A stretch of 64,000 nt of DNA from SAR116 cluster bacterium AG-390-L20 (GTDB taxonomy: Bacteria > Pseudomonadota > Alphaproteobacteria > Puniceispirillales > Marisalimonadaceae): the NCBI GenBank assembly GCA_003278095.1, contig QCHB01000003.1:62001-126000 (forward strand). The letters are read 5' to 3'. Under the pieces are notes generated by a model that did no database searches, was not told the origin of the DNA, and saw nothing but the letters and a program-made list of their open reading frames with translations. Every line of letters starts with the position of its first letter. Within the stretch, counting starts at the first letter, position 1. Below are positions 27,218 to 42,866 of this stretch, one piece after another. Both the position numbers and the translations under genes were made by a program.

Positions 27218-28570
27218 ATGTTTAAAAAGATTGAATTATGGGTTTTTTTACTGTTATTACCCCTTTTTATTTTTATTATAATTGGATTTGGTGCAATTTT
27301 AAAAGAACACTACAATGGTGGTCTTAGATATCCATACTTAAGAACTACTGCCGTATTTCTTGCTGAAATACCAAGTATGATAAAAAAGACACTTTTAACT
27401 AGAGGCGAGTTTTTAGAAGAGTACAATATTTCACTTACAAAAGCTAAAGATCAAAGATTTGGAAACAAAAAGGGTTTTGTTTTTAACAATAAGAAGCCAA
27501 TTGATTTACTTCTTGTATTAAGTAGAACAGACTTTAAAACTAAAAGTATGATAGTTGAACTAATTGATCTTCTTAGTTACAAGGTTATAAAAACATATAA
27601 ACTACATAAAAACATTATAGAAATTTCACAAAATTCCAATCTTGATAATTACGTTTTAAAAGAGAATGCAGTAGTAAGATCTCCTTATATTTCAGATGAC
27701 CTGAGTATAACATTCTTAACAAATAACTATGTAATTATGAAAGTTGATAAAGATCAAAATACGATTTGGCATAATGATGAATATATTTTTCATCACACAT
27801 TTAATTATACTAAAAATCAAAAATACATTTGGACTTTGGCCTGTGATAACATTAATAGATCGGGAATCGATGTACAATTTGTTACTAATAATTATTGTGA
27901 TGAAACTGCTATTAAACTTGACTCTAGTAACGGTCAAATATTAGAAAAAATTTCATTAACAAAACTATTTATTAATCAAAACATGCATAATTTGTTATTT
28001 TCTGGACGAATTAACAAGCCAGCACCTGACACAATGCATGCAAATGATATTGAAGTGATTGAAAAAGACACTTCATATTTTTCTAAAGGTGATCTTTTTA
28101 TATCACTTGCAGGACAAAATATGGTTTTACTTATTGATACTAAAAAAAGAAATATTAAGTGGTTTACAAACAAAGGCCTATTTAAGCAGCATGATGTTGA
28201 TATCATAAGTGAATCTGAAATAGCTATTTTTAATAATAATTCGATATCTATAAGAGAAGATGGTGGGCATACTCAAAAGAACAATGAAATAACTGTATAT
28301 GATTTTAAAAATAATACATTCTCATCACCTTTTGATAAGATTTTGCATAAATATGATGTGCGCACTATTAGCCAAGGTCTTCAGGAGATAACATCTTTTG
28401 GAACTTTGGTGGAAGAACAAAATTATGGCCGACTGTTATTTTTAAATCAGGAAGAATTATTTTTTGAATACATCAACAGAGGTGATGATGGAAACGTATA
28501 TCAAGTTCATTGGAGTAGGTTAATTAAAGAAGAAAGAAAAAAAAATAAATTAAGGAGATTTTTAGAGTGA
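27218..28570 (+). CDS. Membrane-anchored arylsulfotransferase-like (ASST-fold) protein
   Basis: 450 residues. A hydrophobic helix at 7-29 anchors the N-terminus; the rest looks like a beta-propeller with repeated W/F-x-D strands. HANDIEV (His274) and the KQHDVDIISESEIAIFNNN block (His325) match the paired histidine motifs of bacterial arylsulfotransferases, where His receives the sulfuryl group; an ARG/His after GGHTQ (about 350) may complete the site. ASST enzymes move sulfate between phenolic donors and acceptors without PAPS in the periplasm. Here the gene starts a tight operon with a PAPS sulfotransferase and the PAPS-making genes, so involvement in glycan sulfation or handling of a sulfated glycan is inferred. 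The next gene overlaps by 4 bases. Confidence 0.62.
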   Translation: MFKKIELWVFLLLLPLFIFIIIGFGAILKEHYNGGLRYPYLRTTAVFLAEIPSMIKKTLLTRGEFLEEYNISLTKAKDQRFGNKKGFVFNNKKPIDLLLVLSRTDFKTKSMIVELIDLLSYKVIKTYKLHKNIIEISQNSNLDNYVLKENAVVRSPYISDDLSITFLTNNYVIMKVDKDQNTIWHNDEYIFHHTFNYTKNQKYIWTLACDNINRSGIDVQFVTNNYCDETAIKLDSSNGQILEKISLTKLFINQNMHNLLFSGRINKPAPDTMHANDIEVIEKDTSYFSKGDLFISLAGQNMVLLIDTKKRNIKWFTNKGLFKQHDVDIISESEIAIFNNNSISIREDGGHTQKNNEITVYDFKNNTFSSPFDKILHKYDVRTISQGLQEITSFGTLVEEQNYGRLLFLNQEELFFEYINRGDDGNVYQVHWSRLIKEERKKNKLRRFLE

Positions 28571-28788
28571 ACATTATCTATTTAATAGTTTTATTAGTTC
28601 TTCCATCGTCCGCAATAGCTTACATTGGTCCTGGAATGGCGGGTGGTGTTGTTGCGGCGTCATTTGCTATAATTACTGCAATATTTATATGTATATTTGG
28701 AGTGATTTGGTTTCCAATTAGGCGTATGTTAAAAAAAAAGAAAGATAAATTAAATTTAAAAGATAGTTCCTCAGCAAATGATAAATGA
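28567..28788 (+). CDS. Small secreted/membrane protein with AYIGPG motif
   Basis: 73 residues. Residues 1-18 look like a signal peptide with an Ala-Ile-Ala cleavage site, then YIGPGMAGGVV, a membrane segment (about 27-50) and a Lys-rich cytoplasmic tail. Start is GTG overlapping the preceding stop as GTGA. Similar tiny Tyr-Ile-Gly-Pro-Gly proteins are, to my recollection, common in glycan and membrane loci of marine bacteria, but no function is established. Its place between the ASST-like gene and the next membrane gene suggests it is a partner or assembly factor of that protein. Confidence 0.7.
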   Translation: MNIIYLIVLLVLPSSAIAYIGPGMAGGVVAASFAIITAIFICIFGVIWFPIRRMLKKKKDKLNLKDSSSANDK

Positions 28789-29144
28789 TGTCCTACCTCC
28801 TAATATTTATTTTTTCATTAATAAGTTGTGAGATATTTATTAGATTTAGGCTATTATTTGAGTTTAAATCATTATTTATTAGACAAAAAGACTTATTTTC
28901 AGTTCTATTTTCAAAAATTTTGTCAGATGAAGAAAAAGAAGCAAAAATATACAAATTATCAATTTCCCTTTTCTTGAGTGGATTAAAATGTTTTTTACAT
29001 TTATTTTTATTTATTTCTATCTTTTACGCTTTGTCTATCGTATCTGATACATTTATCTCAAGTATTTTACATCCCTTAGGTTTGATTTTGTCAATTTTAA
29101 CTTTTTTCTTATATATAAAAATCAGAAAATTTTTTAATGATTAG
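28785..29144 (+). CDS. Small multi-pass membrane protein of unknown function
   Basis: 119 residues, Leu/Ile/Phe-rich, with three predicted membrane segments (about 1-16, 65-85, 93-110) and a charged loop (FSKILSDEEKEAKIYKL) between. No family recognised. It overlaps the genes on both sides (ATGATG-type junction upstream; 8 bases with the sulfotransferase downstream), so it belongs to the same transcription unit. It may form the membrane part of the sulfation system, but nothing in the sequence itself tells its role. Confidence 0.7.
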   Translation: MMSYLLIFIFSLISCEIFIRFRLLFEFKSLFIRQKDLFSVLFSKILSDEEKEAKIYKLSISLFLSGLKCFLHLFLFISIFYALSIVSDTFISSILHPLGLILSILTFFLYIKIRKFFND

Positions 29145-30144
29145 TTATAACTTTATCGATAGACTATTACACGACATATTTCTTAACTATAGCTTTGTTA
29201 AAAAATCTACATTTGAATTAGAAAAATTCTTATTTAATTATATTTTTACGGAAGATTTTTTAAGTTTATCAAAAAAAGAAAATCATATTTTTATTTCTAG
29301 TTTGCCCCGTTCAGGTACTACTTCACTTTTAAATTATATATATTCGGGAAATGAATTTGCATCACTTACGTATCGTGATATGCCATTTATACTCGCTCCA
29401 AATTTATCAACCAAATTTAATAGTCAAAAAAAATTTTTTTTACCTAAATTACGCTTCCATAATGATGGCATATATATAGATTTAGACAGCCCAGAAGCCT
29501 TTGATAACGTATTTTTCGATGTATTTAGTAATTCTGAAATAATAGAAGAACTACCAAATTATGTCGCTTTAATATTAAATAGATATAATAAAAAACGGTA
29601 TTTGAGTAAAAATAACAACCTTTTAAATAAAATAGAGATAATTACAAAATCTTTAAAAAACACAATTTTTTTGACACCTTTTAGGGATCCAAAAACTCAG
29701 TGTACATCACTATTTAGACAACATAAACATTTTAAAAAAATTCATAAAGATAATAAATTTTCTAAGAGATATATGACTTTTTTGGGGCATGAAGAATTTG
29801 GTTTTTTACACAAGCCTTGGAATAAAAGTATTAAATATAAAAATACAAGTGACATAAATTATTGGTTAGAGCAATGGGTTCTTTATTATGAGATAGCATT
29901 AGAGATTTCAAAAAATTACGCTAATCATTATCTAGTCTGTTATGAAAAACTTATTGATATTAATTATTTAAAAAAACTTAATTATATTACTCGAACATTA
30001 AATACTGAAACTGATTTTTTTAAAATTTCACAAAATGTATCAGAAGGTGATTATGATACTTACTTATTGGATAGATCTAACAAACTATATATAGAATTAA
30101 TGGAAGCAAGTTTTATGGCATTTACGAATAAAAATGATGAGTAG
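29137..30144 (+). CDS. PAPS-dependent carbohydrate sulfotransferase
   Basis: 335 residues of the Sulfotransfer fold. 5'-PSB loop SSLPRSGTTSLLN at 54-66 binds the 5'-phosphosulfate of PAPS; the 3'-phosphate motif is LTPFRDPKTQCTSLF (about 185-199) with Arg-Asp and Ser. A YEKLID-like segment follows near 267. The protein would transfer sulfate from PAPS to a sugar acceptor in the cytoplasm. The sugar and carbon are not deducible. PAPS is made by the CysD and CysNC genes 111 bases downstream. Overlap of 8 bases with the preceding membrane gene puts it in the same operon. Confidence 0.85.
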   Translation: MISYNFIDRLLHDIFLNYSFVKKSTFELEKFLFNYIFTEDFLSLSKKENHIFISSLPRSGTTSLLNYIYSGNEFASLTYRDMPFILAPNLSTKFNSQKKFFLPKLRFHNDGIYIDLDSPEAFDNVFFDVFSNSEIIEELPNYVALILNRYNKKRYLSKNNNLLNKIEIITKSLKNTIFLTPFRDPKTQCTSLFRQHKHFKKIHKDNKFSKRYMTFLGHEEFGFLHKPWNKSIKYKNTSDINYWLEQWVLYYEIALEISKNYANHYLVCYEKLIDINYLKKLNYITRTLNTETDFFKISQNVSEGDYDTYLLDRSNKLYIELMEASFMAFTNKNDE

Positions 30145-30255
30145 AAGATATATTAAATAATTCATATTATTAATAAGATTTAATATCGATAATAAGAGCG
30201 GATAAAATAAACAACTTTAAATTTGAGCTTTATAAATATAAAAATAGGTTTGCAA

Positions 30256-31146
30256 ATGAATCATCTTGAAAAGTTAGAATCTGAATCAATTCATATTTTT
30301 AGAGAAGTTGTTTCAGAAACAAAAAATCCAGTAATGCTTTATTCTATCGGCAAGGATAGTGCTGTTATGCTTCACATTGCAATAAAAGCATTTTTTCCAG
30401 CGCCTCTACCATTTAAACTTTTGCATGTAGATACTGGTTGGAAGTTTCAGGAGATGTATAAATTCAGAGACTATATAAAAAAAAAACATACATTAGAACT
30501 GATAGTTCATCAAAATGAAAATGGATTAAAAGAAAATATAAATCCTTTTGATCATGGATCTTCTAATTATACTCATATAATGAAAACTGAAGCGTTAATT
30601 CAGGCGATTAATAAATATAAATATGAAGTTGCATTTGCAGGAGCAAGGAGAGATGAAGAAAAAAGTAGGTCAAAAGAACGAATTTTTTCATTTAGATCTG
30701 CCAATCATCAATGGGACCCTAAAAATCAAAGAGCAGAATTATGGAATATCTATAATACAAAATTAAATTATAATGAAACATTCAGAGTGTTTCCACTTTC
30801 AAATTGGACTGAGCTAGATATATGGCAATATATTTATCAAGAAAATATAGAGATTGTTCCTCTATATTTTTCAAAACCAAGAATGTGTGTTGAGAGAAAA
30901 GGCTCTATTTTTATGGTTGATGATGATAGAATGAAGCTTCATGAAAATGAAACTGTGAAATTAATGAAGATTCGATTTAGAACACTTGGTTGCTATCCTT
31001 TAACATCGGCTATTATTTCAAGTGCGAATAATGTCGAAGAGATTATAAGTGAATTATTAATAACACAATTTTCAGAAAGACAAGGTAGGATAATTGATCA
31101 TGAAAACTCTTCGATGGAAGAGAAGAAAATAAATGGCTATTTTTAA
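30256..31146 (+). CDS. cysD: Sulfate adenylyltransferase small subunit CysD
   Basis: About 296 residues, normal for CysD. PP-loop pyrophosphatase motif [11 protein letters not shown] near 28-38; [53 protein letters not shown]; and [16 protein letters not shown] are all characteristic. With CysN it makes APS from ATP and sulfate. The longer frame from TTG at 30223 is rejected for ATG at 30256, which has an AGG site 8 bases upstream and the standard [16 protein letters not shown] start. CysNC follows with zero spacing. It is within the sulfation operon rather than among cysH/cysI assimilation genes, of which none are present here. Confidence 0.95.
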
Positions 31147-33009
31147 ATGGCAAATGCAAGTATCAATTCTCTTTTAGAAAAAAAAAATAACTTAACTTTA
31201 TTAAGAATAGTTAGTTGTGGAAGCGTTGACGATGGTAAAAGTACTTTAATCGGTAGATTGCTATATGATACTAAGATGATTTTTTCTGACCAAATTGATA
31301 CACTTAAGTTAGATTCTAAAAAGAGCGGAACGCAAGGTAACCAAATTGATTTTGCTTTATTAGTTGATGGGTTAAGTTCTGAAAAAGAACAAGGTATTAC
31401 AATAGATGTAGCTTATAGATATTTTACAACAGAAAAAAGAAAATTTATTATTGCTGATACCCCTGGCCATGAAGAATACACTCGTAATATGGTGACTGGA
31501 AGCTCTCTTGCAGATGTTGCTATTATTTTAGTAGATGTAAATTCTGGAATTTTGGAACAAACTTTGAGGCATATAAATATTTGTAATTTCATGGGGATAA
31601 AAAAATTAATTCTCGTAGTTAATAAAATGGATACAGTGAACTATAATCAGAAGAAATTTGATAATGTAAAAACTAGATTTTTAGATATTTGTATAAACTT
31701 TGATTTTAACCAAATTGTATCAATACCTGCATCTGCTCTTAAAGGAGAAAATATAATTTTAAAAAGTATTTTGATGCCATGGTACAAGGGAGATCCACTA
31801 CTACATATTTTGGAGAACTTAAATATTGAAGAAACAGGTCTTAGCAAATCATTTATAATGCCTGTACAATATGTAAATAGACCAAACTCTAACTTTAGAG
31901 GATATTGTGGACTTGTCAGTAATGGGCAAATTAAAAAGGGAGACTCAATATATATACTTCCTAATAAGACAAAGGCTAACATTAAAGACATTTTTTGTGG
32001 AGATGAGAGTTTGCACTATGCAAAGGAGTCTAAAAGTATAACTTTGTTGCTTAACAAAAATGTAAGTGTTTCAAGAGGTGATTGTATAGTATCTAACCTC
32101 AATGATTTAAAAATGTCGGACCAATTTGAGGTTAATTTATTTTGGTTGTCAAACAAACTTGGTCATGTAGGAAGAGAGTATTACCTAAAATTAAACACGC
32201 AAACCGTCAGGGTAACGATTTCAAATATTAAATTTAAAATTAATATTAATGATAACAGTAAAACAACAGCAAAAACTTTAAAAACAAACAATTTCTATGT
32301 TTGTAATATTAGATCCAATAAAAGTATATGGTACAAGAGTTTTATAAAAAATAAGAAATGTGGGTCATTTATACTGATAGATAAATATTCAAATTCAACA
32401 ATTGCTGCTGGAACTATTAATCATGGTCTAAGAAGGTCTGATAATTTATCTTATCAGACATTTACCGTTGATAAAAAGGCTAGACGTTTACTTAATAATC
32501 ATTCGAGTAAAGTTTTTTGGTTTACAGGTTTAAGCGGATCTGGAAAATCAACTATTGCGAATAGCTTCGAAAAATATTTGTATCAGCTTGGAATTCGTAC
32601 TTATATATTGGATGGAGATAACATAAGAAAAGGGTTAAATCATGATCTTGGTTTTACTGAAACTGATAGAATTGAAAACATAAGAAGAGTAGCAGAAATT
32701 GCAAAACTTTTTGTGGATGCTGGTATAGTAGTTCTTACGTCATTTATATCTCCTTTCGAACAAGACAGGCAAATGGCTAGAAGCTTATTTTCGTCAGATG
32801 ATTTTGTAGAAGTTTATCTAAATACATCCATAGAAATTTGTGAAAAAAGAGATGTCAAAGGATTATATAAAGCAGCACGAGAAAAAAAATTATTAAATTT
32901 TACGGGGATAGATTCACCATACGAAGTGCCTAAAAATCCTGATTTTGTAATTGATACAGAAAAGATGACCCTAAACGACATAAATGTGTTATTAATGTCT
33001 AAATTATGA
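31147..33009 (+). CDS. cysNC: Bifunctional sulfate adenylyltransferase GTPase subunit and adenylylsulfate kinase (CysN-CysC)
   Basis: 620-residue fusion. N-terminal GTPase: P-loop GSVDDGKST 25-33, DTPGHEEYTRNM, NKMD, and the EF-Tu-like beta-barrel domains. C-terminal APS kinase begins near residue 453 with SSKVFWFTGLSGSGKST (P-loop about 461-469), LDGDNIRKGLN, and DAGIVVLTSFISPF. The product PAPS is the donor for the sulfotransferase. Fusion of CysN and CysC is a known arrangement in several bacteria making sulfated compounds such as the rhizobial NodQ. Ends at TGA/pyrC 3' overlap of 6 bases on the other strand. Confidence 0.95.
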   Translation: MANASINSLLEKKNNLTLLRIVSCGSVDDGKSTLIGRLLYDTKMIFSDQIDTLKLDSKKSGTQGNQIDFALLVDGLSSEKEQGITIDVAYRYFTTEKRKFIIADTPGHEEYTRNMVTGSSLADVAIILVDVNSGILEQTLRHINICNFMGIKKLILVVNKMDTVNYNQKKFDNVKTRFLDICINFDFNQIVSIPASALKGENIILKSILMPWYKGDPLLHILENLNIEETGLSKSFIMPVQYVNRPNSNFRGYCGLVSNGQIKKGDSIYILPNKTKANIKDIFCGDESLHYAKESKSITLLLNKNVSVSRGDCIVSNLNDLKMSDQFEVNLFWLSNKLGHVGREYYLKLNTQTVRVTISNIKFKININDNSKTTAKTLKTNNFYVCNIRSNKSIWYKSFIKNKKCGSFILIDKYSNSTIAAGTINHGLRRSDNLSYQTFTVDKKARRLLNNHSSKVFWFTGLSGSGKSTIANSFEKYLYQLGIRTYILDGDNIRKGLNHDLGFTETDRIENIRRVAEIAKLFVDAGIVVLTSFISPFEQDRQMARSLFSSDDFVEVYLNTSIEICEKRDVKGLYKAAREKKLLNFTGIDSPYEVPKNPDFVIDTEKMTLNDINVLLMSKL

Positions 33010-34047
33010 GGTTGAAACTTTCCAATAAACATCAAAATTTGGATTAAAAATGTTTATATGATCCTTATTAACTTTTAATGTTTTTTCAAAAGTAATAGGG
33101 GTTTCTGACTTAGTTAATTTGATCTTTTCTTTATTTAACTTTAAATTATAGTGTTTAGCGCCATTAATACTTGTAAAATTCTCTAATTGAGAAAGTGAAT
33201 TTTCATTATCAAATAACTGGGCTAAAATTGACATACAATACGTTGCATTAAAAATGCCAGCACATCCGCACTCACTTTCTTTATCAGATTTTAAATGAGG
33301 AGCTGTATCTGTTCCTAAAAAAAACTTTGGATTTCCGCTAGTCGCGGCTCTAACAAGAGCTTTTCTATGTACCTCTCGTTTTAATATTGGGAGACAATAG
33401 TAATGTGGACTTATTCCTCCATTAAAAATAGCATTTCTGTTTAATGCCAAATGATGAGGAGTTATAGTTGCGGACACGTTTATACTACTGTCTTGCAAAT
33501 ACGTTGTGGCTTCTTTTGTTGTGATATGTTCAAGGGTGATTTTAAGATTAGGTAATTCCGAACATATAAAATCTAAGACTGTATCAATAAATTTTTTTTC
33601 TCTGTCAAAAACATCTATTTCTTTATCAATAACTTCACCATGAATTAGTAAAGGCATTCCAATATCAGACATTTTTTCTAGTACAGGCATTATTTTAGAA
33701 ATATCACCTACTCCAAATTCTGAATTTGTTGTAGCTCCTGCTGGGTATAGTTTTGCAGCAAAAATCATTTCTTGTTGATAAGCTTCTTCTAATTCGTCTG
33801 TTCTTGTGTTTTCTGTCAAATAAAGAGTCATTAAAGGTTTAAATTTATTCGACTTAGGAATAACATCTAAAATCTCATCTTTGTATCTTTTAGCGTCGAA
33901 GCCATTTAGGATTGGTGGAATTAAGTTTGGCATAACAATAGCCCTACCAAAATGTCTAATAGTTTCAGGAACAACTGCCATCAAAATATTTCCGTCTCTA
34001 AAATGAACGTGAAAATCATCTGGTTTTATAATTTCAATTATTTTCAT
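33004..34047 (-). CDS. pyrC: Dihydroorotase
   Basis: 347 residues, the size of class II dihydroorotase. Metal-binding HVHFRD at 13-18, the carboxylated lysine in AKLYPAGATTNSEFG, LIHGE, LEHITTKEA, SATITPHHL and LGTDTAPHLKSDKE with catalytic Asp. It interconverts carbamoyl aspartate and dihydroorotate for UMP synthesis. Converges with cysNC (6-base 3' overlap). It is a housekeeping gene placed between sugar genes; a second UMP gene, pyrF, lies 10 kb further on, and it could help UTP supply for UDP-sugars, though there is no regulatory evidence. Confidence 0.95.
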   Translation of the reverse strand: MKIIEIIKPDDFHVHFRDGNILMAVVPETIRHFGRAIVMPNLIPPILNGFDAKRYKDEILDVIPKSNKFKPLMTLYLTENTRTDELEEAYQQEMIFAAKLYPAGATTNSEFGVGDISKIMPVLEKMSDIGMPLLIHGEVIDKEIDVFDREKKFIDTVLDFICSELPNLKITLEHITTKEATTYLQDSSINVSATITPHHLALNRNAIFNGGISPHYYCLPILKREVHRKALVRAATSGNPKFFLGTDTAPHLKSDKESECGCAGIFNATYCMSILAQLFDNENSLSQLENFTSINGAKHYNLKLNKEKIKLTKSETPITFEKTLKVNKDHINIFNPNFDVYWKVSTS

Positions 34048-34187
34048 AGTTTAGCACAGGATTATTTTAAAATATTTATATTTTAATAAATACAATATAT
34101 ATAAAATTTTACTAAACAATTTTTTATAAATATACAAAACTTTTTAAATAAAGTTAATCTTATAAATTTAATAGTGTATAAAGCAAT

Positions 34188-35411
34188 ATGAAATCAAACA
34201 AAAAATTTAATAATGTGGTTATAATAAGCGACAGTTATGTACCTCAGAAAATATCATCTGCTGGCATGATATATAATCTCTCAAAGTCGTTAGAAAAAAA
34301 TAGAATTGAAGTAACGTGTGTCTTTGTAGGTAAAATTGACGAAAATATTAAAAAAAATTATGGTCTAGAAAGTATGAATTTAATTTATACAGAACTATTT
34401 ACTAATTTTAGAAATAAATCATTGATCTTTCGTTTTATATTTGAAATTTCAACATCAATAGTTTTAGCTGCTAAATGTTTTTTAAATAGAAAAAAAAAAT
34501 TCGATTTAATAATTTGGTATGGTCCCTCTGTTTTCTTATGGATTGTAGTTAAAGCCTTAAATTCATACCGAAAAGTTCCTGTTTATTATATACTTAGAGA
34601 TATATTTCCAGATTGGTTAATTAACTTAAAAATAGTAAAACAACCGGTTTTAATCTGGTTTTTAAAAAAAATTTCAAACCATCAATATTTTGTTTCAGAT
34701 AAAGTAGGAGTAGAAACGTTTGAAAACATTGTTTATTTAAAAAAAACAAAAAAAAATATTAAAAAAATAGAAGTGCTGCCTAATTGGCCTAGCATTGTAT
34801 TACCAGAGAATAATTTAGCTAAACCTGCATTAAAATCAAAATTTTTAAGTGTTGCTAATCGTTCGAGAGAAGAAAAAATTCTTACTGCTGTTTATACAGG
34901 AAACTTGAGTGTAGCTCATGATTATAATTCATTAATAAATTTTTTTAACATTGACTATATTTTTCCTAAGTTACAAATCAACATTTTTTGTAAGAAAACA
35001 GTGCTGAAGATAATAACAAACAAATCAATTGAACAAAAACAATGGGGTTTAGTTGAAAGTCATAATTTACCTTTTATATTTTCTTTTATAGATTGCGGGA
35101 TTGTAACCCTAAATAGGTACGCGGAAACCACTAATATTCCTGGTAAATTTGTAAGTTATACTCAGTATAAGTTACCAATTATTTGTTTTGCAAAAATAAA
35201 TTCACCTTTAGCTACATTAATACACCAATATAATTGCGGAGTTGTAATAGATTTAGATTTAAATAATAATGAAAATTGTGAGAAGTTGTCTAAATTTTTG
35301 GTTGATATAAAAATTAACTATACATTTTTTTCACAAAATTCATATAAATTATTTATTGAAAATTTTGATACAAATAAACGATGTTATCAAATTTTAAATG
35401 CGTTTAATTAA
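34188..35411 (+). CDS. Glycosyltransferase family 4-like
   Basis: 407 residues. The start VVIISDSYVPQKISSAGMIYNLSKSLE has the N-terminal GT4 acceptor domain with the DxYxPxxxSAGM loop common to these enzymes; LPNWP, the domain hinge TAVYTGNLSVAH and the donor region IPGKFVSYTQYKLPIIC (with the Lys-Phe-x-Tyr E-x7-E-like pattern) follow. The usual E-x7-E is not obvious; the donor site has PGKF and an acidic pair instead, common in WbuB-like transferases. Isolated on the plus strand between pyrC and a LegB-like gene on the minus strand. Sugar unknown. Confidence 0.72.
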   Translation: MKSNKKFNNVVIISDSYVPQKISSAGMIYNLSKSLEKNRIEVTCVFVGKIDENIKKNYGLESMNLIYTELFTNFRNKSLIFRFIFEISTSIVLAAKCFLNRKKKFDLIIWYGPSVFLWIVVKALNSYRKVPVYYILRDIFPDWLINLKIVKQPVLIWFLKKISNHQYFVSDKVGVETFENIVYLKKTKKNIKKIEVLPNWPSIVLPENNLAKPALKSKFLSVANRSREEKILTAVYTGNLSVAHDYNSLINFFNIDYIFPKLQINIFCKKTVLKIITNKSIEQKQWGLVESHNLPFIFSFIDCGIVTLNRYAETTNIPGKFVSYTQYKLPIICFAKINSPLATLIHQYNCGVVIDLDLNNNENCEKLSKFLVDIKINYTFFSQNSYKLFIENFDTNKRCYQILNAFN

Positions 35412-35423
35412 AATATTATATAA

Positions 35424-36404
35424 CTAAAAATTATATACGTCTGATTTGTAATTTGCCAAATTTTTAGGATTAGAAAACCAGTCTATTGTTTTTTTGAGAC
35501 CCTCGATTAAATTATTTTGAGGTTGAAAATTTGTTAGAGATTTCATCAACTGATTATCACATTGTAAGTTTTGTACTTCTGAATTTTCAGGCCTTAATCT
35601 GTTTTCTTTAACAGTTAACACTTTTTTAATATCCATCAAATTCATTATAGTTTTAGACAAATCCTCCATGCTAATTTTTTTATTAGAGCCAATATTTATA
35701 ATTTTTCCAATTGCATCTTTGGAATTTGCAAGACTTATTAATCCATTGCAAGTGTCAGTTACATAATTTAAGTCTCTACTGGGACTTAAAGATCCAATAT
35801 TTATGAATTTACTATTAGATAAAAGTTGAACAATAACATTTGGTATTATTGCTCTGGCAGATTGTCTTGGACCATAAGTGTTAAAAACTCTCGCAATTTT
35901 TGTATTTAGATCAAAACTTTTATTAAAACTTGTTACTATTGCTTCTGCTGCAATTTTACTTGCACTATATGGGCTTTGTGCAACTATTGGATGTAATTCG
36001 TCAATTGGTAAATATTGAGCAGAACCATACACTTCACTTGTAGACATTTGCAATAGTTCTTCAACATTATTATACAAAGCTGCCTCACAAAGGTTTAATG
36101 TACCTATAGAGTTGGTTTCTATATAACTACTCGGCGCTTGATATGAATATGGTATTGCAATTAAAGCTGCTAAATTAAAAACCTTTTCAACGTTTTTTGT
36201 CATTGATATACAAAAGCTTTTATCTCTTATATCGCCTGATATTATTTCCATTTCTGATATAAACTTACTTTTTTCTAACCATCCCCAACTATTAAATGAA
36301 TTATATTGAACTAGAGCCTTTACTGTATAATTTTTTAATATAAGACATTCAGCTAAATGAGAACCTATAAAACCGTCTGCACCAGTTACAAGAATTTTTT
36401 TCAT
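35424..36404 (-). CDS. legB: NAD-dependent 4,6-dehydratase, LegB-like
   Basis: About 326 residues of extended SDR. GADGFIG loop near 8-14, then LVQYNSFNSWGWLE (31-44), a signature I recognise from LegB-type NDP-GlcNAc 4,6-dehydratases of legionaminic acid pathways. Catalytic STSEVYG (121-127) and Tyr146-x3-Lys150 (YSASK) are intact; RVFNTYGPRQSARAIIPN fits too. LegB forms the 4-keto-6-deoxy intermediate from GDP- or UDP-GlcNAc. The ATG at 36404 is preferred to the ATG at 36416 because GAGGG lies 6 bases upstream of it. No LegC/LegH/LegG genes are adjacent. It may also be a general dehydratase. Confidence 0.78.
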   Translation of the reverse strand: MKKILVTGADGFIGSHLAECLILKNYTVKALVQYNSFNSWGWLEKSKFISEMEIISGDIRDKSFCISMTKNVEKVFNLAALIAIPYSYQAPSSYIETNSIGTLNLCEAALYNNVEELLQMSTSEVYGSAQYLPIDELHPIVAQSPYSASKIAAEAIVTSFNKSFDLNTKIARVFNTYGPRQSARAIIPNVIVQLLSNSKFINIGSLSPSRDLNYVTDTCNGLISLANSKDAIGKIINIGSNKKISMEDLSKTIMNLMDIKKVLTVKENRLRPENSEVQNLQCDNQLMKSLTNFQPQNNLIEGLKKTIDWFSNPKNLANYKSDVYNF

Positions 36405-36450
36405 TTTAACCCTCATTTATTTAGCAACATCAGTAAGTTATAACTAAGAT

Positions 36451-36488
36451 ATTATTACTACTATTCAAATGAAAAAAGTAGTAATAAT
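36451..36488. promoter_or_regulatory. Perfect 11-bp inverted repeat, possible operator or attenuator
   Basis: ATTATTACTAC at 36451-36461 and its exact complement GTAGTAATAAT at 36478-36488, separated by 16 bases. It lies in the 220-base gap between the divergent legB-like gene and the nucleotidyltransferase. On the plus strand the right arm is followed by a short T run (TTTT, 36489-36492), so an attenuator hairpin is possible. AT-only composition is broken by Cs and Gs in the arms, which makes chance less likely. Confidence 0.4.
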
Positions 36489-36624
36489 TTTTCAAAAATA
36501 TATAGATTAAATCATAACGTCGTTGATTTAATAAGAGAAATAAAATATTTTTTTATAAATGATAAAATCCCATCTATTTATATTTTGATATAAATAATTA
36601 TTTGAAGTCAAATGGAGAAATATT

Positions 36625-37341
36625 ATGCAAGCTGTTATTTTAGCTGGTGGTGTGGGGACTAGACTTAAGCCCCTGACAAATATTTTGCCTAAGCCTCTAA
36701 TGCCGTTGGGGGAATATTCTATCTTGGAGGTTATACTAAGGCAATTAAAATTAGCTGGTGTTGAAGAGGTTTTTTTAACCTGTGGATATCTCAGTCACAT
36801 TATTAAAGCATTTTTTGAAGATGGTAAAAGGCTTGGTTTAAACATAAAGTATTCAGTTGAATCAAAACCACTTGGAACAGCAGGACCTTTATCTTTAATT
36901 ATAGACGATTTAGAAGAAGATTTTCTAGTAATGAATGGAGACATCCTAACGAACTTAGATTTTAAAAGAATGTTTAATTTTCATATGAATGAGGGTGCAT
37001 CAGCAACTATTGGTATAAAAGCAAGGGAAGTAAAGGTTGATTTTGGTGTTATAAAAAATGACAAAAAAAATTTTTTAGAATATGTTGAAAAGCCTATTTA
37101 TAACTTTGATGTCAGTATGGGTATCAATATTTTTAATAAAAATGCAATTAAAAATATAATTAAAAACAATATCTATATTGATATACCAGTATTGATTACA
37201 AAACTTCATAAAATGAAGTTTAATATAAAATGTTATTCTGAAAATTGTGAGTGGTTAGATATTGGAAGATTGGATGATTATGAATTAGCTATAGATATAT
37301 TTGAAAAACAAAGACAAATATTTTTCAAAGATTATTTATGA
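36625..37341 (+). CDS. Sugar-1-phosphate nucleotidyltransferase
   Basis: 238 residues of the NTP_transferase fold without any CBS or C-terminal hexapeptide domain. LAGGVGTRLKPLTN near 6-19, LPKPLMPLG, LGTAGPL, VMNGDILTN with metal Asp, FVEKP-like LEYVEKPI and a closing WLDIGRLDDY. This matches the RmlA/RfbF/PtmE catalytic core. In legionaminic acid loci a GlcN-1-P guanylyltransferase of this fold carries an N-terminal CBS pair; here the CBS pair sits on a separate dehydrogenase (10885-12588), so the two may be related parts. Downstream SDR overlaps by 4 bases. Nucleotide and sugar unknown. Confidence 0.82.
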   Translation: MQAVILAGGVGTRLKPLTNILPKPLMPLGEYSILEVILRQLKLAGVEEVFLTCGYLSHIIKAFFEDGKRLGLNIKYSVESKPLGTAGPLSLIIDDLEEDFLVMNGDILTNLDFKRMFNFHMNEGASATIGIKAREVKVDFGVIKNDKKNFLEYVEKPIYNFDVSMGINIFNKNAIKNIIKNNIYIDIPVLITKLHKMKFNIKCYSENCEWLDIGRLDDYELAIDIFEKQRQIFFKDYL

Positions 37342-38237
37342 ATATATTAATTACAGGTGCCAATGGTTTTGTTGGCAAACATTTGACAATATATTTGTTA
37401 TCTTTAGGTTTAAATATTTATACAATAGGAAGATCTCCCTATACAGGTTTAGAAAAAAATTTTTATTTTATTTCAGCTATAAATAATAATAGTTTTAAGA
37501 TGTTTCTCCTTAATGCTAATATTGATTACTTCATTCATTTAACTGGTAATCCTAACTTAATTGATCAAACACAGAATAATTTTATAAATTGTGATTTAGG
37601 ATTACAAATTTTAAAAGAAATTGAGGAACTGTATAGACATAAGAGTGTTAAATGTATTTTTTTTGGTTCTGCAGCTGAGTATGGGTTATATAAGTCACAT
37701 TTAAATCCAATAAATGAAACTCAGAAAACCAATCCAATTAGTAACTATGGAATTGCTAAAAACAAACAAACAATTAATGCTATTGCATGGGCAAAAAAAA
37801 ACCATAAAATGCTTGTCATAAGACCTTTTTCTATATTAGGAGAAGAGATGCCAAAGCAATCAGCTTTTGGTTCTTTTATAAAACAAATTAAAAATAAAAA
37901 TTCAAAATATGTTAAAACATCTAACTTAGATGTTCATAGAGATTTTATTGATATTAATGATTTGATAAAAATTATTTGGAAACTAGTTTTAAACCACAAC
38001 TCTTATGGAAAAATAGTGAATGTTTGCTCAGGAAAACCTATTCACTTAAAAGAAATGCTTGAATATATGATCAAGTATACCCAAACGTCAAAAAGTTTAA
38101 AACAAATGTCTAATGAAAAATTTAATTTAATACCTAATATTGTTTATGGAGACAATTCATTATTATTTTCATTAATTGGTAAATACAAACTGTTAAGTTG
38201 GAAACGTAGTCTAAAGAGGATTTTAGATAAATGCTAA
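37338..38237 (+). CDS. NAD(P)-dependent sugar epimerase/reductase (SDR)
   Basis: 299 residues. ANGFVGKH near 9-15 (GANGFVG loop), HLTGNPN, FGSAAEYGLYK, and catalytic Tyr-x3-Lys in NYGIAKNKQ; RPFSILGE and RDFIDINDLI are typical of the RmlD/GalE-like extended SDRs. Start overlaps the nucleotidyltransferase stop by 4 bases (ATGA), pointing to one NDP-deoxysugar pathway. Likely acts on the NDP-sugar made by its partner after a dehydratase step. Substrate not deducible. Confidence 0.82.
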   Translation: MNILITGANGFVGKHLTIYLLSLGLNIYTIGRSPYTGLEKNFYFISAINNNSFKMFLLNANIDYFIHLTGNPNLIDQTQNNFINCDLGLQILKEIEELYRHKSVKCIFFGSAAEYGLYKSHLNPINETQKTNPISNYGIAKNKQTINAIAWAKKNHKMLVIRPFSILGEEMPKQSAFGSFIKQIKNKNSKYVKTSNLDVHRDFIDINDLIKIIWKLVLNHNSYGKIVNVCSGKPIHLKEMLEYMIKYTQTSKSLKQMSNEKFNLIPNIVYGDNSLLFSLIGKYKLLSWKRSLKRILDKC

Positions 38238-38347
38238 TTGAATGAAGTGTGTACATAGTTAAATCTATTTGTAGAACTTTTAAATAATATTTTAATATGT
38301 TATTAAAAAAATATTTAATATTTTACTAAGTTTAGGTAGTTATATAT

Positions 38348-38947
38348 ATGAAAATTTCAATTATTTCTGCAAGTCATAGGTCTAATTCTCAATCAAAAAG
38401 AGTTTCTGAATTGCTTTATAGCAACTTTATAAATTTTAATTCACAGTTGGATATTTTTTCACTTGATTTAGCTGAGGCTTCATTACCACTTTGGACGTCT
38501 GAAAAAAAAAATGGAAATGGTATTTGGGGAAAACCTTGGGATTTAATATCTAATAATTTCAAAAGTTCTGATGGATTTATACTAGTTGTGCCTGAGTATG
38601 GTGGAATGGCAACACCTGCTGCTAAAAATATTTTCTTATTATGTGGTAATGGTGAATTTGCTCATAAACCTGGTTTAATAGTGTCAGTTAGTAGTGGAAA
38701 TGGTGGAGCTTACCCAATAGCTGAGTTGAGAATGTCTTCATACAAGAACACTCACATAATGTGGATACCAGAGAACATTATTATCAGAAACGTAGAAGAA
38801 TTTAATCCAGGAGATCACGGCGATAATATTCCTAAATGGCTAGATAATAGAATTGACTATGTTTTGAAACTACTTTTAGCTTATGCTTCAAATATGAAAG
38901 CGTTGAGAGAGATAATTAACAGGAAGGATTTTGGAAATGGAATGTAA
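38348..38947 (+). CDS. NADPH-dependent FMN reductase-family flavoprotein
   Basis: 199 residues of flavodoxin-like fold. The phosphate loop [15 protein letters not shown] near 6-20 and [15 protein letters not shown] near 80-95 fit the FMN_red family (SsuE/ArsH/YieF type). Shares its last 11 bases with the following PhhB start region. Which electron acceptor it uses is not visible; flavin reductase or quinone reductase are the usual roles. No signal peptide. The 110 bases upstream include a mixed A+T stretch with no clear promoter. Confidence 0.78.
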
Positions 38948-39227
38948 TAATTTAATCAAAAAATTTGAAGAAATTAGGGGATGGGAAAAAACTAATGATG
39001 GAAGAGAGGCATTTGTCAAACTTTTCAAATTTTCTGATTTTAAACAAGCTTTTTCATTTATGACTTCTGTTGCCATGAAAGCAGAACAAATAAATCATCA
39101 CCCAGAATGGAAAAATGTTTATAACAAAGTTACGATCACGCTTACAACTCATGATGTTGGAGGTATTTCTGAATTAGACTACGATATGGCAATTTTTACT
39201 GAAAAATGTTTCAAAAACTATAGTTGA
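38937..39227 (+). CDS. phhB: Pterin-4a-carbinolamine dehydratase
   Basis: 96-residue PCD/DCoH fold. [13 protein letters not shown] with catalytic His pair, [15 protein letters not shown] and the [12 protein letters not shown] strand are diagnostic. It dehydrates 4a-hydroxytetrahydrobiopterin and helps recycle pterin cofactors; no phenylalanine hydroxylase is in the window, as is often the case. ATG at 38937 with AGGAAGG 9 bases upstream is favoured over a TTG at 38931. It overlaps the FMN reductase by 11 bases and is closely followed (18 bases) by acetoacetyl-CoA synthetase. Confidence 0.92.
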
Positions 39228-39245
39228 TATTTGAGCAAATAGATA

Positions 39246-41213
39246 ATGGAAAAAGATATAATTTCAAATCCAGTAATGTGGACGCCATCAAATGAATCAT
39301 TAAAATCTTCGCAGATGTTCAAATTCGTTAAAGCTATCAATGACAGATATAATCTAGATTTAATAAGTTTTGCTGATTTACATAGTTGGTCAGTAAATAA
39401 CAAAAGTGATTTTTGGTCATCCATCTGGGATTTTTTTGAAATCATTGGTTCTAAGGGAAACACCCCGTATATTGAGCCTGAAAATCAGATGCCAGGCAGT
39501 AAATTTTTTCCTAATGGGAGTGTTAATTATTCTGAAAATATTCTCTCAGGCCATATTTCTGGTGCTGCAATTATTTTTAAATCTGAGGATAGAATTAGAA
39601 AAGAGATTTCTTGGAAGGACATTAAGATTCAAACTGCTACTTTAGCAAACTTTTTAAGAAAACAGGGTGTTGTTAAAGGAGACAGGGTAGCTGCATATAT
39701 GCCTAATATGCCTGAAACTGTAATAATGATGTTAGCGACTTCATCTATAGGTGCAGTATTTTCTTCAGCTTCACCAGATTTTGGTGTAGATGGCGTTATT
39801 GACAGATTTGGTCAAATTGAACCCAAAATTTTACTTACTACAGATGGTTATTGGTACAATGGTAAAGAAGTTAATATAACTACTAAAGTCTTAGATATTA
39901 TTAAATTATTACCTTCTCTTGAAAAAGTTATTTTTGCACCACTGTTAGATATTGAAACGGAGTATGTTGTTGATAAATTTGTAAATTACAACGCCATCCA
40001 AGAAAAACACTTTACACAAGAGATATTTTTTGAACCTTTGGCTTTGGATGATCCTCTATATATCATGTTTTCTAGCGGCACTACTGGTAAGCCTAAATGC
40101 ATTGTTCACTCCAATGGTGGTGTTCTTTTGAAACACCTAGTCGAAGTGGGGCTTCATTCTAATTCTAGAAAAAATAGCAAAGTTTTCTATTTTACAACTT
40201 GTGGGTGGATGATGTGGAATTGGTTAGTATCAGGACTTTTACTAAAGTCTACTATATATTTATATGATGGATCACCATTTTTCCCAAATTCAGAAATTTT
40301 ATGGAATTATGTAGATAGTGAAAAAATTAATTTTATGGGAGTTTCAGCAAAATATATTGACGCTTTAAGTAAAGAAAATATTATAATTATTGATAAATTT
40401 AAGTTAACTGATTTAGAAACAATAGGATCAACAGGATCTCCGCTAGTACATGAAAGTTTCGATTATATATATAAGAATGTTAAAAAAGATGTTTCGGTTG
40501 CAAGCCTGTCTGGAGGCACTGATATAGTAGGCTGCTTTATAGGCGGAAACCCAATGTCAGCTGTTCGAAGAGGAGAAATACAAGGTCCAATTTTAGGCAT
40601 GGATGTTCATGTTTATAACGAAAATGGTCAATCCATAAAAAATGAGAAAGGAGAGTTGGTATGCAAACAGAGCTTTCCTACTATGCCGTTATTTTTTTGG
40701 AAAGATAAAAAAAACAAAAAATATCATGAGGCTTATTTTAATAAATATCCAAATGTCTGGTGTCATGGTGATTATATTGTTAAGACTGAAAATAATGGCT
40801 TTATAATTTTTGGTAGATCAGATGCCACATTAAACCCTGGTGGAGTTCGTATTGGAACATCAGAAATATATAGGCAAGTTGAACAAATAGAAGAAGTTCT
40901 TGAAGGCCTAGTTGTAGGACAAATTTGGAAGGCTGATACAAGGGTGGTTTTATTTGTAAGATTGAAGCCAAACTATGATTTGACAGAAGAATTAATTAGC
41001 AAAGTAAAAACTAAAATCAAAACAGGAGCATCTCCTAGGCATGTTCCTTCAAAAATTATTGTTGTTAATGACATACCTAGAACAAAATCAGGGAAAATAG
41101 CAGAATTAGCAGTACGGGATTTAATTCATGATAAAAAGATTAATAATGAAACAGCTTTATCTAATCCTGAGTGTTTAGAAGAATATAAAAACATTGAAGA
41201 ATTAAGAGACTAA
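39246..41213 (+). CDS. Acetoacetyl-CoA synthetase (acetoacetate--CoA ligase)
   Basis: 655 residues, typical length of the AACS branch of ANL adenylate-forming enzymes. Motifs: ATP loop SSGTTGKPK, CGWMMWNWLVSGLL, SGGTDIVGCFIGGNP (an AACS hallmark), FPTMPLFFW, WCHGDYI, and the late ASPRHVPSK and RTKSGKIAE with the catalytic Lys. It activates acetoacetate, linking ketone-body/PHB and leucine-degradation products to acetoacetyl-CoA. Converges with an MFS transporter (4-base overlap of stops). Adjacent to phhB, with which it may share a transcript. Substrate is inferred from the AACS-specific motifs. Confidence 0.9.
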   Translation: MEKDIISNPVMWTPSNESLKSSQMFKFVKAINDRYNLDLISFADLHSWSVNNKSDFWSSIWDFFEIIGSKGNTPYIEPENQMPGSKFFPNGSVNYSENILSGHISGAAIIFKSEDRIRKEISWKDIKIQTATLANFLRKQGVVKGDRVAAYMPNMPETVIMMLATSSIGAVFSSASPDFGVDGVIDRFGQIEPKILLTTDGYWYNGKEVNITTKVLDIIKLLPSLEKVIFAPLLDIETEYVVDKFVNYNAIQEKHFTQEIFFEPLALDDPLYIMFSSGTTGKPKCIVHSNGGVLLKHLVEVGLHSNSRKNSKVFYFTTCGWMMWNWLVSGLLLKSTIYLYDGSPFFPNSEILWNYVDSEKINFMGVSAKYIDALSKENIIIIDKFKLTDLETIGSTGSPLVHESFDYIYKNVKKDVSVASLSGGTDIVGCFIGGNPMSAVRRGEIQGPILGMDVHVYNENGQSIKNEKGELVCKQSFPTMPLFFWKDKKNKKYHEAYFNKYPNVWCHGDYIVKTENNGFIIFGRSDATLNPGGVRIGTSEIYRQVEQIEEVLEGLVVGQIWKADTRVVLFVRLKPNYDLTEELISKVKTKIKTGASPRHVPSKIIVVNDIPRTKSGKIAELAVRDLIHDKKINNETALSNPECLEEYKNIEELRD

Positions 41214-42424
41214 CCCACTACTTTTACTTCTGAATTCACTGAAAAAGGCTCTTCTTTAACTGTGATTGTTAGAATAAATGCCACAAAACCCAAAGCAACA
41301 CTTAACCACCACATATTTTCATAGTTACCATAAATATCAAAAAATCTACCACCTAACCAAGCTCCTAAAACAGCTCCTAATTGATGACAAATAAAACAGA
41401 TACCAGATAAGGTCGCTAAATACTTTGGGCCTATGAAAGAAAGTATAATAGCATTTGTCATTGGAACTGTTGCTAACCAAAAGATACCAATTAGAGCACC
41501 AAATAAAATAGCGGTTATTGGTGAGGGAGGGGACAAAACAAATATAGTGATCGCTAATGATCTAAATAAATAAATTATTGACAAGGGCATTGGTTTTTTA
41601 ATTTTTCCTCCTAGCCACCCAAAGCCTATTGTTCCTAAAATATTAGTTACACCTATGATTGCTAAAGACCAGCCGGCAACTTCGACAGAAATACCTTTTG
41701 ATATTAGGTCAGTTGGAAGATGTAACGCTATAAAAGTTACATGAAAGCCACAAACAAAAAAGCCAAGAATTAATAGTAAATAATTTCTTTCTTTCAAAGA
41801 AAATTTAACAGTGTTTTTTAAATCTTCCTTAAAAGATTGACTTTTTGCAGTAACACTATTTGGATCATTTAAAAGCGGTAAAAGAAATAATAGACAAATA
41901 GATATTACAGCTAAAACAAGCAAGCTTGTTTGCCATCCAAACTCTTTATTCATCCACATGGTCGGCAATACCACAGCAAATTGACCGAATGAGCCTGCAG
42001 CTGCGACCAATCCCATAGCAATCGAACGTTTACTTACTGGAGCCACCTTGCCTGCTATACTAACAATAGTAGCCATTCCTGCACCACCAAGACCAAATCC
42101 CATTAGGGTTGTAGCTGAAAATAATTTAATTTCTGAGGTGGGGTTGCTCATGAAAAAAATTCCAGATGCAAAACAAATTATTCCAAATGCTAATACTTTT
42201 TGAGGGCCAAATTTATCAATTAAAATACCAAGAACAAATGTTACTAAACCCCAGACAATCGCCTGAACACCAATAGCGAACGAAAAAAACTCCTTTCCGT
42301 CATTCATGAACATGGAGATTGGCTCTAAAAACAATCCAAGTGCTTGTCTTACACCCATAATCATTGCAATTATAATAGAACATACGAGTATGATAACTTG
42401 CCAATCTACTTTTTTTATTTCCAT
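41210..42424 (-). CDS. MFS transporter (oxalate/monocarboxylate-type)
   Basis: 404 residues with 12 hydrophobic helices, in two six-helix halves joined by a charged loop near 195-215 (LNDPNSVTAKSQSFKED). The MFS motif between helices 2 and 3 is GILIDKFGPQKVL; a similar GGKIKKPMP motif occurs between helices 8 and 9. GxxxGxG signatures and overall pattern recall the oxalate/formate antiporter and MCT-like families. Gene lies 22 bases downstream of a MarR regulator on the same strand and is probably regulated with it. Substrate unknown; an aromatic or organic acid is typical for MarR-MFS pairs. Confidence 0.85.
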   Translation of the reverse strand: MEIKKVDWQVIILVCSIIIAMIMGVRQALGLFLEPISMFMNDGKEFFSFAIGVQAIVWGLVTFVLGILIDKFGPQKVLAFGIICFASGIFFMSNPTSEIKLFSATTLMGFGLGGAGMATIVSIAGKVAPVSKRSIAMGLVAAAGSFGQFAVVLPTMWMNKEFGWQTSLLVLAVISICLLFLLPLLNDPNSVTAKSQSFKEDLKNTVKFSLKERNYLLLILGFFVCGFHVTFIALHLPTDLISKGISVEVAGWSLAIIGVTNILGTIGFGWLGGKIKKPMPLSIIYLFRSLAITIFVLSPPSPITAILFGALIGIFWLATVPMTNAIILSFIGPKYLATLSGICFICHQLGAVLGAWLGGRFFDIYGNYENMWWLSVALGFVAFILTITVKEEPFSVNSEVKVVG

Positions 42425-42446
42425 TGTTATCCCCTCATTTCAAAAA

Positions 42447-42866
42447 TTAAATATCAATTTTACATATCTTAGTTATTAAAGTGTCAATCTCTTTATAATT
42501 TTTTATACCTAATGTTTTTATATATTTTTGGTCAGTTTCTTCCCAAATAATAATCGCTTTTCTAAGTTTATTTTTACCAGCAGTTGTTAATTGAATTATT
42601 TTATTTTTATTATCTTGTTCATATTTATAAGTAACAAGGTTCATTTTTATTAATTTTTCAATGCTGCGTAAAACAGTGGTTCTATCTAGCTCTAGCAGAT
42701 ATGATAAATCGGAAATATTTGTTTTGCTCAATTTTTGAATATTTCTTAAAGTACTAAACTGAGTAATTTTAATTCCAACTTTAGCTAGAGCTGAATCATA
42801 TACTTTAGTTAGATTGTTACTCGCTTTTCGAAGACTTATGCAATTACAAGATGTATTATATCCCAT
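42447..42866 (-). CDS. MarR family transcriptional regulator
   Basis: 139 residues. An N-terminal CNCISLRKASNNLTKVYDSAL dimerisation helix, the winged-helix core TNISDLSYLLELDRTTVLRSIEKLIKMNLV, and a short charged C-terminal helix. The pattern CxC-x-xLRxAxxxxTxxYD is common in MarR-type regulators of transporter genes. No Shine-Dalgarno precedes the ATG; instead a 16-base perfect palindrome lies 4-19 bases upstream (see that entry). It is followed by an MFS transporter gene. Ligand unknown. Confidence 0.88.
   Translation of the reverse strand: MGYNTSCNCISLRKASNNLTKVYDSALAKVGIKITQFSTLRNIQKLSKTNISDLSYLLELDRTTVLRSIEKLIKMNLVTYKYEQDNKNKIIQLTTAGKNKLRKAIIIWEETDQKYIKTLGIKNYKEIDTLITKICKIDI

Follow-up and report, generated by a model that had tools for sequence, protein, structure and literature searches.

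A widespread four-gene cassette joining an arylsulfate sulfotransferase-like propeller to a PAPS-type sulfotransferase, beside cysD-cysNC in a SAR116 cluster bacterium: a possible two-step sulfation system

The stretch of DNA analysed here (hereafter the window) comprises 64,000 nucleotides of the SAR116 cluster bacterium AG-390-L20 (GenBank assembly GCA_003278095.1, contig QCHB01000003.1, positions 62,001 to 126,000 of the forward strand), and six open reading frames (ORFs) lie on one strand (+) at positions 27218-33009 of it. The first four form a cassette composed of a membrane-anchored propeller of 450 aa resembling arylsulfate sulfotransferases (ASST) (27218..28570), a 73-aa small membrane protein with the motif A-Y-x-G-P-G (the AYxGPG protein; 28567..28788), a 119-aa protein with three transmembrane (TM) segments (the SDHWKE protein, named after its motif; 28785..29144) and a 335-aa sulfotransferase of the type using 3′-phosphoadenosine 5′-phosphosulfate (PAPS) (29137..30144). 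They are followed by cysD, the ATP sulfurylase small subunit (30256..31146), and cysNC, the large subunit fused to adenosine 5′-phosphosulfate (APS) kinase (31147..33009). The overlaps among the first four genes are 4, 4 and 8 bases; the cysD ORF is listed from a TTG at 30223, and homologues support the ATG at 30256, 111 bases past the sulfotransferase stop. Thus the positions, the common strand, the short overlaps and the gap of about 111 bases given by an earlier sequence-only reading of the window are all confirmed. As discussed below, the six genes are two units, that is, the four-gene cassette and cysD-cysNC.

In Pfam, the propeller is assigned to Arylsulfotran_2 (PF14269) with an E-value of 5.5e-23 and 82.2 bits against a cut-off of 27, and the sulfotransferase gene matches Sulfotransfer_3 (PF13469, 1.6e-5) and Sulfotransfer_1 (PF00685, 8.2e-5), which is borderline against the Pfam cut-offs. 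CysD (NF009214/TIGR02039, 476 bits, cut-off 413) and CysNC (NF004035, 5e-252, 838 bits, cut-off 715) are recognised by NCBIfam. The AYxGPG and SDHWKE proteins match no Pfam or NCBIfam family above its cut-off.

The order propeller, AYxGPG, SDHWKE, sulfotransferase recurs in tens of other genomes with similar short overlaps, and because of this recurrence the cassette is far beyond chance. A profile scan of 84,980 species genomes gave 246 relatives, of which the best 80 (L105-L184) and the window make up 81 loci; since the 80 were chosen by likeness to the window's propeller, the fractions given here describe that family neighbourhood and not the whole of PF14269. The best 80 of the 246 include Prochlorococcus, marine Synechococcus, many Pelagibacteraceae, SAR116, SAR86, SUP05, Candidatus Marinamargulisbacteria, Rhodobacteraceae/Roseobacteraceae and two Betaproteobacteria. 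The full cassette is present in 40/81 loci, including those of Prochlorococcus, SAR11, SAR86, SUP05 and SAR116, with overlaps typically of 4-17 bases among the 81 loci. Another 11 loci carry the propeller, AYxGPG and sulfotransferase genes, and in 8 of these 11 the sulfotransferase is long and bears the SDHWKE protein, or an apparent version of it, at its N-terminus; five loci hold the propeller and AYxGPG only, three of them stopping at a contig edge. Plasmid-borne copies of the cassette were found in Novosphingobium capsulatum, Sagittula, Tateyamaria and Paracoccus. In the papers searched, nothing describes a cassette of this kind, whether from Prochlorococcus, SAR11, SAR116 or more generally, so the cassette is apparently both widespread and undescribed. 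As variations of the layout, a DUF3137 gene is inserted between the propeller and AYxGPG genes in one locus (L036:7205-8185), tandem propeller genes with no AYxGPG or sulfotransferase nearby occur in L117, L131, L132 and L148, and solo propellers are frequent in Rhodobacteraceae/Paracoccaceae.

The linkage of the four genes was also seen within the Alphaproteobacteria, where the propeller was found in 14/385 genomes and is repeatedly adjoined by a small AYxGPG protein, a membrane protein of ~120 aa and a sulfotransferase. In a co-occurrence sample of 372 of such genomes, AYxGPG (E below 1e-10) was present in 12 and the cassette-type sulfotransferase (E below 1e-30) in 14; the set searched for the propeller was slightly larger, and part of the genomes had contributed to the profiles. 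In all 12 AYxGPG genomes the sulfotransferase and the propeller are present as well, and AYxGPG never occurs without them, while only two propeller genomes, both fragmented assemblies, are without the other cassette genes (Fisher p ~1e-20 and ~1e-18, kinship not corrected for). Moreover, the pairwise distances of the four proteins in the 40 complete cassettes are correlated (Mantel r 0.79-0.92, with 0/2000 permutations as high), these correlations still containing the shared history of the hosts. In two genomes (G331 and G301; L206, L207) the propeller lies elsewhere and AYxGPG still adjoins the sulfotransferase. In a third (G198, L234), the sulfotransferase is intact with a frame like the three-TM gene beside it, AYxGPG is truncated and no propeller was found, which looks like decay of the cassette. 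That is to say, the four genes have evolved as one unit, as had been supposed from the window.

The AlphaFold model of the propeller (predicted local distance difference test, pLDDT, 89.7) consists of one N-terminal TM helix (7-32) and the propeller, whose domain is predicted to be periplasmic. The Foldseek search ranked BamB (3q7o) first, and after it structures of E. coli ASST, and Cpz4; the TM-scores were 0.51-0.53 for ASST/Cpz4 vs 0.34 for BamB; the solved ASST folds matched are 4p05 and 9kf6 (TMq 0.52-0.53). Residues H193, H274, N276, Q324, H325 and N340 are invariant in 84/84 propeller sequences. It has been reported that the active site of E. coli ASST consists of His252, His356, Asn358, Arg374, Thr501 and the nucleophile His436 (PMC13426309), and by motif and profile alignment H193, H274, N276 and H325 correspond to His252, His356, Asn358 and His436, so that the histidine site proposed earlier at His274/His325 is upheld. 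In the profile alignment of the propeller (profile A1) to Cpz4, the H, H-x-N, S-x-R and QHD motifs align. The propeller family thus looks enzymatic, and the window copy may be altered. Single-sequence searches of the PDB with the propeller or the sulfotransferase gave nothing useful, and profiles were needed; a larger propeller profile (A7) was rejected as it matched designed propellers through repeat similarity, and A1 and the fold search were used instead.

In the sulfotransferase, R58-x-G60-x-T62 (PRSGTT-type, resembling the 5′-phosphosulfate-binding motif, 5′-PSB) and R183...S191 (resembling the 3′-phosphate-binding motif, 3′-PB) are invariant in 50 sequences. Its AlphaFold model has a pLDDT of 92, and its nearest folds and profiles by Foldseek and profile search are TPST-2 (a tyrosylprotein sulfotransferase, TPST, with bound 3′-phosphoadenosine 5′-phosphate, PAP), Stf1 and Stf9. 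The AYxGPG protein, in which A-Y-x-G-P-G is invariant in 34 aligned sequences (53/56 in a larger set), has a signal-peptide-like start with an AxA-like signal-peptidase site just before the invariant Tyr (predicted cleavage A|YIGPG), then one TM helix and a basic tail predicted to be cytosolic; its K/R residues stand only after the TM helix (mean 0 before, 8.6 after). The SDHWKE protein has three TM segments and a basic loop with the SDxxKE (SDHWKE) motif, its K/R residues being confined to loop 1 and the C-terminus, and it is fused to the sulfotransferase N-terminus in several lineages; its predicted role is that of a scaffold for the sulfotransferase on the inner side of the membrane. By positive-inside reasoning from hydropathy and charge, the sulfotransferase is predicted to be cytosolic and the propeller to face outwards. 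A 67-aa small membrane protein of similar layout with a different motif, AYLDPG, occurs in a glycan locus (L193:11927-12130).

With regard to the PAPS supply, the only match to PAPS_reduct (PF01507) in the genome (93% complete) is CysD itself, so no cysH was detected, and no match to NIR_SIR was present, so no cysI was detected; among 40 genomes of the genus, many of them incomplete, 13 carry CysD and none has a CysH-grade match. Because cysDNC occurs without cysH/cysI in this genome and no cysH was found among the 40 genus genomes, the PAPS of the window is very probably used for sulfation and not for assimilation, in agreement with the sequence-only reading. In the genus relatives, none of which showed the propeller, some cysDNC copies belong to glycan loci, some are neighbours of flagellin genes and others lie elsewhere. 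In one genome (G013), the genes shared with the right flank of the window are 71-94% identical, and cysD and cysNC, which lie nearby at another site, are 63% and 51% identical; because of this lower identity, the cysD-cysNC of the window seems to have been separately acquired. Among side observations, cysD-cysNC is flanked by flagellin-like genes in two genus relatives without cysH (L194 and L196), which suggests flagella-linked sulfation. In L162:12879-14354, L192:7040-8527 and L193:7769-9268, CysNC has as its neighbour a long CysD (491-499 aa) that is extended at the N-terminus by ~190 residues; the long CysD of L162 has no other Pfam match, and a CysQ-like gene stands beside the pair in L162 and L192. 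'CysNC' matches near the cassette in L124, L163, L169 and L154 were discarded as apparent translation GTPases (TypA/EF-Tu-like and similar).

A comparable pairing is known from caprazamycin, in which PAPS-dependent Cpz8 sulfates a triketide pyrone and the ASST Cpz4 transfers the sulfate to the aminoribose (PMC6731281, PMC4257720). In that Streptomyces system, where the pyrone carrier is made by a type III polyketide synthase (PKS), a PAPS sulfotransferase and an ASST-type propeller are likewise encoded together, and Cpz4 (9kf4/9kf6) is both the best profile match of propeller profile A1 and a top fold match, with aligned catalytic motifs. Unlike it, the cassette has a membrane-anchored and predicted outward-facing propeller and two conserved small membrane proteins, no carrier-making enzyme was seen in the cassette or the inspected flanks, and the setting is not an antibiotic cluster, the cassette being spread widely among planktonic bacteria. 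By analogy, the cassette may be a variant of two-step PAPS-sulfotransferase/ASST sulfation. The partner genes of the propeller, a PAPS sulfotransferase and two small membrane proteins, also differ from those of the E. coli CFT073 ASST, which are DsbL/DsbI. With this enzyme the propeller shares the fold and the His nucleophile with His/His/Asn support (PMC13426309), whereas the window propeller matches PF14269, has a membrane anchor and carries Ala for Arg. The sulfotransferase resembles tyrosylprotein sulfotransferases and mycobacterial Stf1 and Stf9 (Sulfotransfer_3 fold) in fold and PAPS-site motifs, and differs from them at 11-16% identity and a TM-score of about 0.4, constituting a separate subfamily in which RxHxD and GHxEFG motifs are invariant. 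Likewise, CysD and CysNC, both above the NCBIfam cut-offs, are like assimilatory CysDNC, and depart from it in the missing cysH/cysI partners noted above.

Quite possibly, then, the cassette is a membrane-bound two-enzyme, two-step sulfation system to which the adjoining cysD-cysNC supply PAPS. CysD/CysNC would make PAPS in the cytosol, and the sulfotransferase, which the SDHWKE protein would keep at the inner face, would transfer the sulfuryl group from PAPS to an aryl (phenolic) carrier. At the outer face, the propeller would take the sulfuryl group from the carrier onto His325 in a ping-pong reaction, as does His436 of E. coli ASST, and would then donate it outside the cytoplasm, the acceptor most likely being a hydroxyl on a surface glycan that has been exported; as for the AYxGPG protein, it may serve the carrier or the enzymes as an obligate membrane partner. 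The topology, the relay between the enzymes, the carrier and the acceptor are inferred, and the inside-to-outside relay appears to be the most economical reading. It is very unlikely that the AYxGPG protein is itself the aryl carrier, its invariant Tyr being exposed after signal-peptide cleavage and transiently O-sulfated as donor for the ASST-like enzyme, as this Tyr is predicted to be periplasmic and the PAPS enzyme cytosolic.

Several observations weigh against the two-step relay. The propeller is without other cassette genes nearby in 25/81 loci, no type III PKS that would make an aryl carrier was seen in the cassette or inspected flanks, no genome-wide search having been made, and the TM-scores are modest (about 0.5 for the propeller and 0.4 for the sulfotransferase). 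The cysDNC genes adjoin the cassette only twice, once in the window and once in an unrelated metagenome-assembled genome (L162, where CysD is extended and an inositol-monophosphatase-family, CysQ-like gene adjoins); the association is sensible but uncommon, and the single six-gene module proposed earlier is not supported in that form. As judged from the alignments, neither enzyme has lost its active-site or cofactor motifs, apart from the supporting Arg (Arg374 in ASST) of the window propeller: position 298 is Arg in 80/84 propellers and Ala in the window copy, a loss which the sequence-only reading had missed, and this copy stands on a long branch (2.05). Because A298 replaces Arg and the branch is long, the window propeller may be weak or altered. 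In addition, the SAR11 genomes with the cassette are mostly without a recognisable PAPS pathway.

The lone propellers and the lack of a carrier-making gene in the cassette also speak for parallel sulfation, in which the cytosolic enzyme would use PAPS on a lipid- or nucleotide-linked precursor, the propeller would separately use environmental aryl sulfates and the small proteins would only be anchors. For the characterised ASST enzymes, the sulfuryl donors are indeed aromatic compounds provided from outside (PMC13426309), but independent reactions need neither the near-perfect co-occurrence nor the correlated distances of AYxGPG, sulfotransferase and propeller, and separate reactions are considered somewhat unlikely. 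Less likely than this, the propeller may be no enzyme and may instead, in the manner of BamB, act as a scaffold or bind the sulfated product, with the cytosolic PAPS reaction as the sole sulfation. The first rank of BamB and the missing Arg of the window copy fit a scaffold; the TM-score of BamB is lower than that of ASST/Cpz4, and the His/Asn site, invariant in 84/84 sequences including the window, is one that a scaffold would not need, for which reasons it was set aside as the main explanation.

Whether the glycan of this locus is the target can also be questioned. Cassettes are often outside glycan loci (between alr and psaA in Prochlorococcus, near groEL/typA in SAR11), so the dedication to this locus's glycan that had been proposed is not borne out, and the best sequence and fold matches of the sulfotransferase are tyrosylprotein sulfotransferases. 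The cassette may instead sulfate a lipid, quinone or protein, its position in a glycan locus being incidental, to which a low probability, similar to that of the scaffold, is given: glycan genes surround the cassette in the window, in SAR86 (L111) and Tateyamaria (L053) and in part of the SAR11 loci, the acceptors preferred by Cpz4 are sugar hydroxyls (PMC13426309), and the TPST resemblance is low.

The cassette in SAR11 is surprising, as SAR11 is without assimilatory sulfate reduction (PMC5069961). Sat was found in 1/15 SAR11 cassette genomes with few convincing APS kinases, and a near-complete SAR11-like genome (G306) has the cassette, no CysD or Sat and only weak APS-kinase-like genes. Either SAR11 obtains PAPS in a way not yet recognised, or the sulfotransferase uses another donor. 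An APS-kinase-like gene of ~137 aa is found in many cassette-bearing SAR11 genomes (noted in G306 and at L047, L051, L158 and L184); it adjoins the cassette sulfotransferase in L158/L184, and in L051 a 124-aa cytidylyltransferase-like gene follows it.

PAPS is made in the cytosol, and the cassette makes it testable how bacteria sulfate exported molecules, since a PAPS enzyme predicted to lie inside and an ASST predicted to lie outside are paired in it, along with two small membrane proteins that seem obligate. It is common to genomes of Prochlorococcus, SAR11, SAR86, SUP05 and the Roseobacter group, and so to some of the most abundant bacteria of the ocean; it bears on cell-surface chemistry, contact with phages and grazers, and sulfated organic matter in the ocean.

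As for the surroundings, no Rfam RNA family was found in the window, shuffles gave more promoter-like matches than the actual sequence, and all three terminator-like matches fall within genes. The propeller had no match among phage records, and none of the four cassette proteins matched the PADLOC anti-phage defence models. The window around the cassette is a surface-polysaccharide region, with genes for an O-antigen ligase/polymerase (Wzy_C), NeuB, a UDP-sugar dehydrogenase, an ABC transporter, capsule synthesis, Wzz and many sugar epimerases. Comparison of positions 33004-42866 with L195 indicates that the pyrC region is a hot spot, where G013 keeps the flanks and the glycan and cysDNC content differs.

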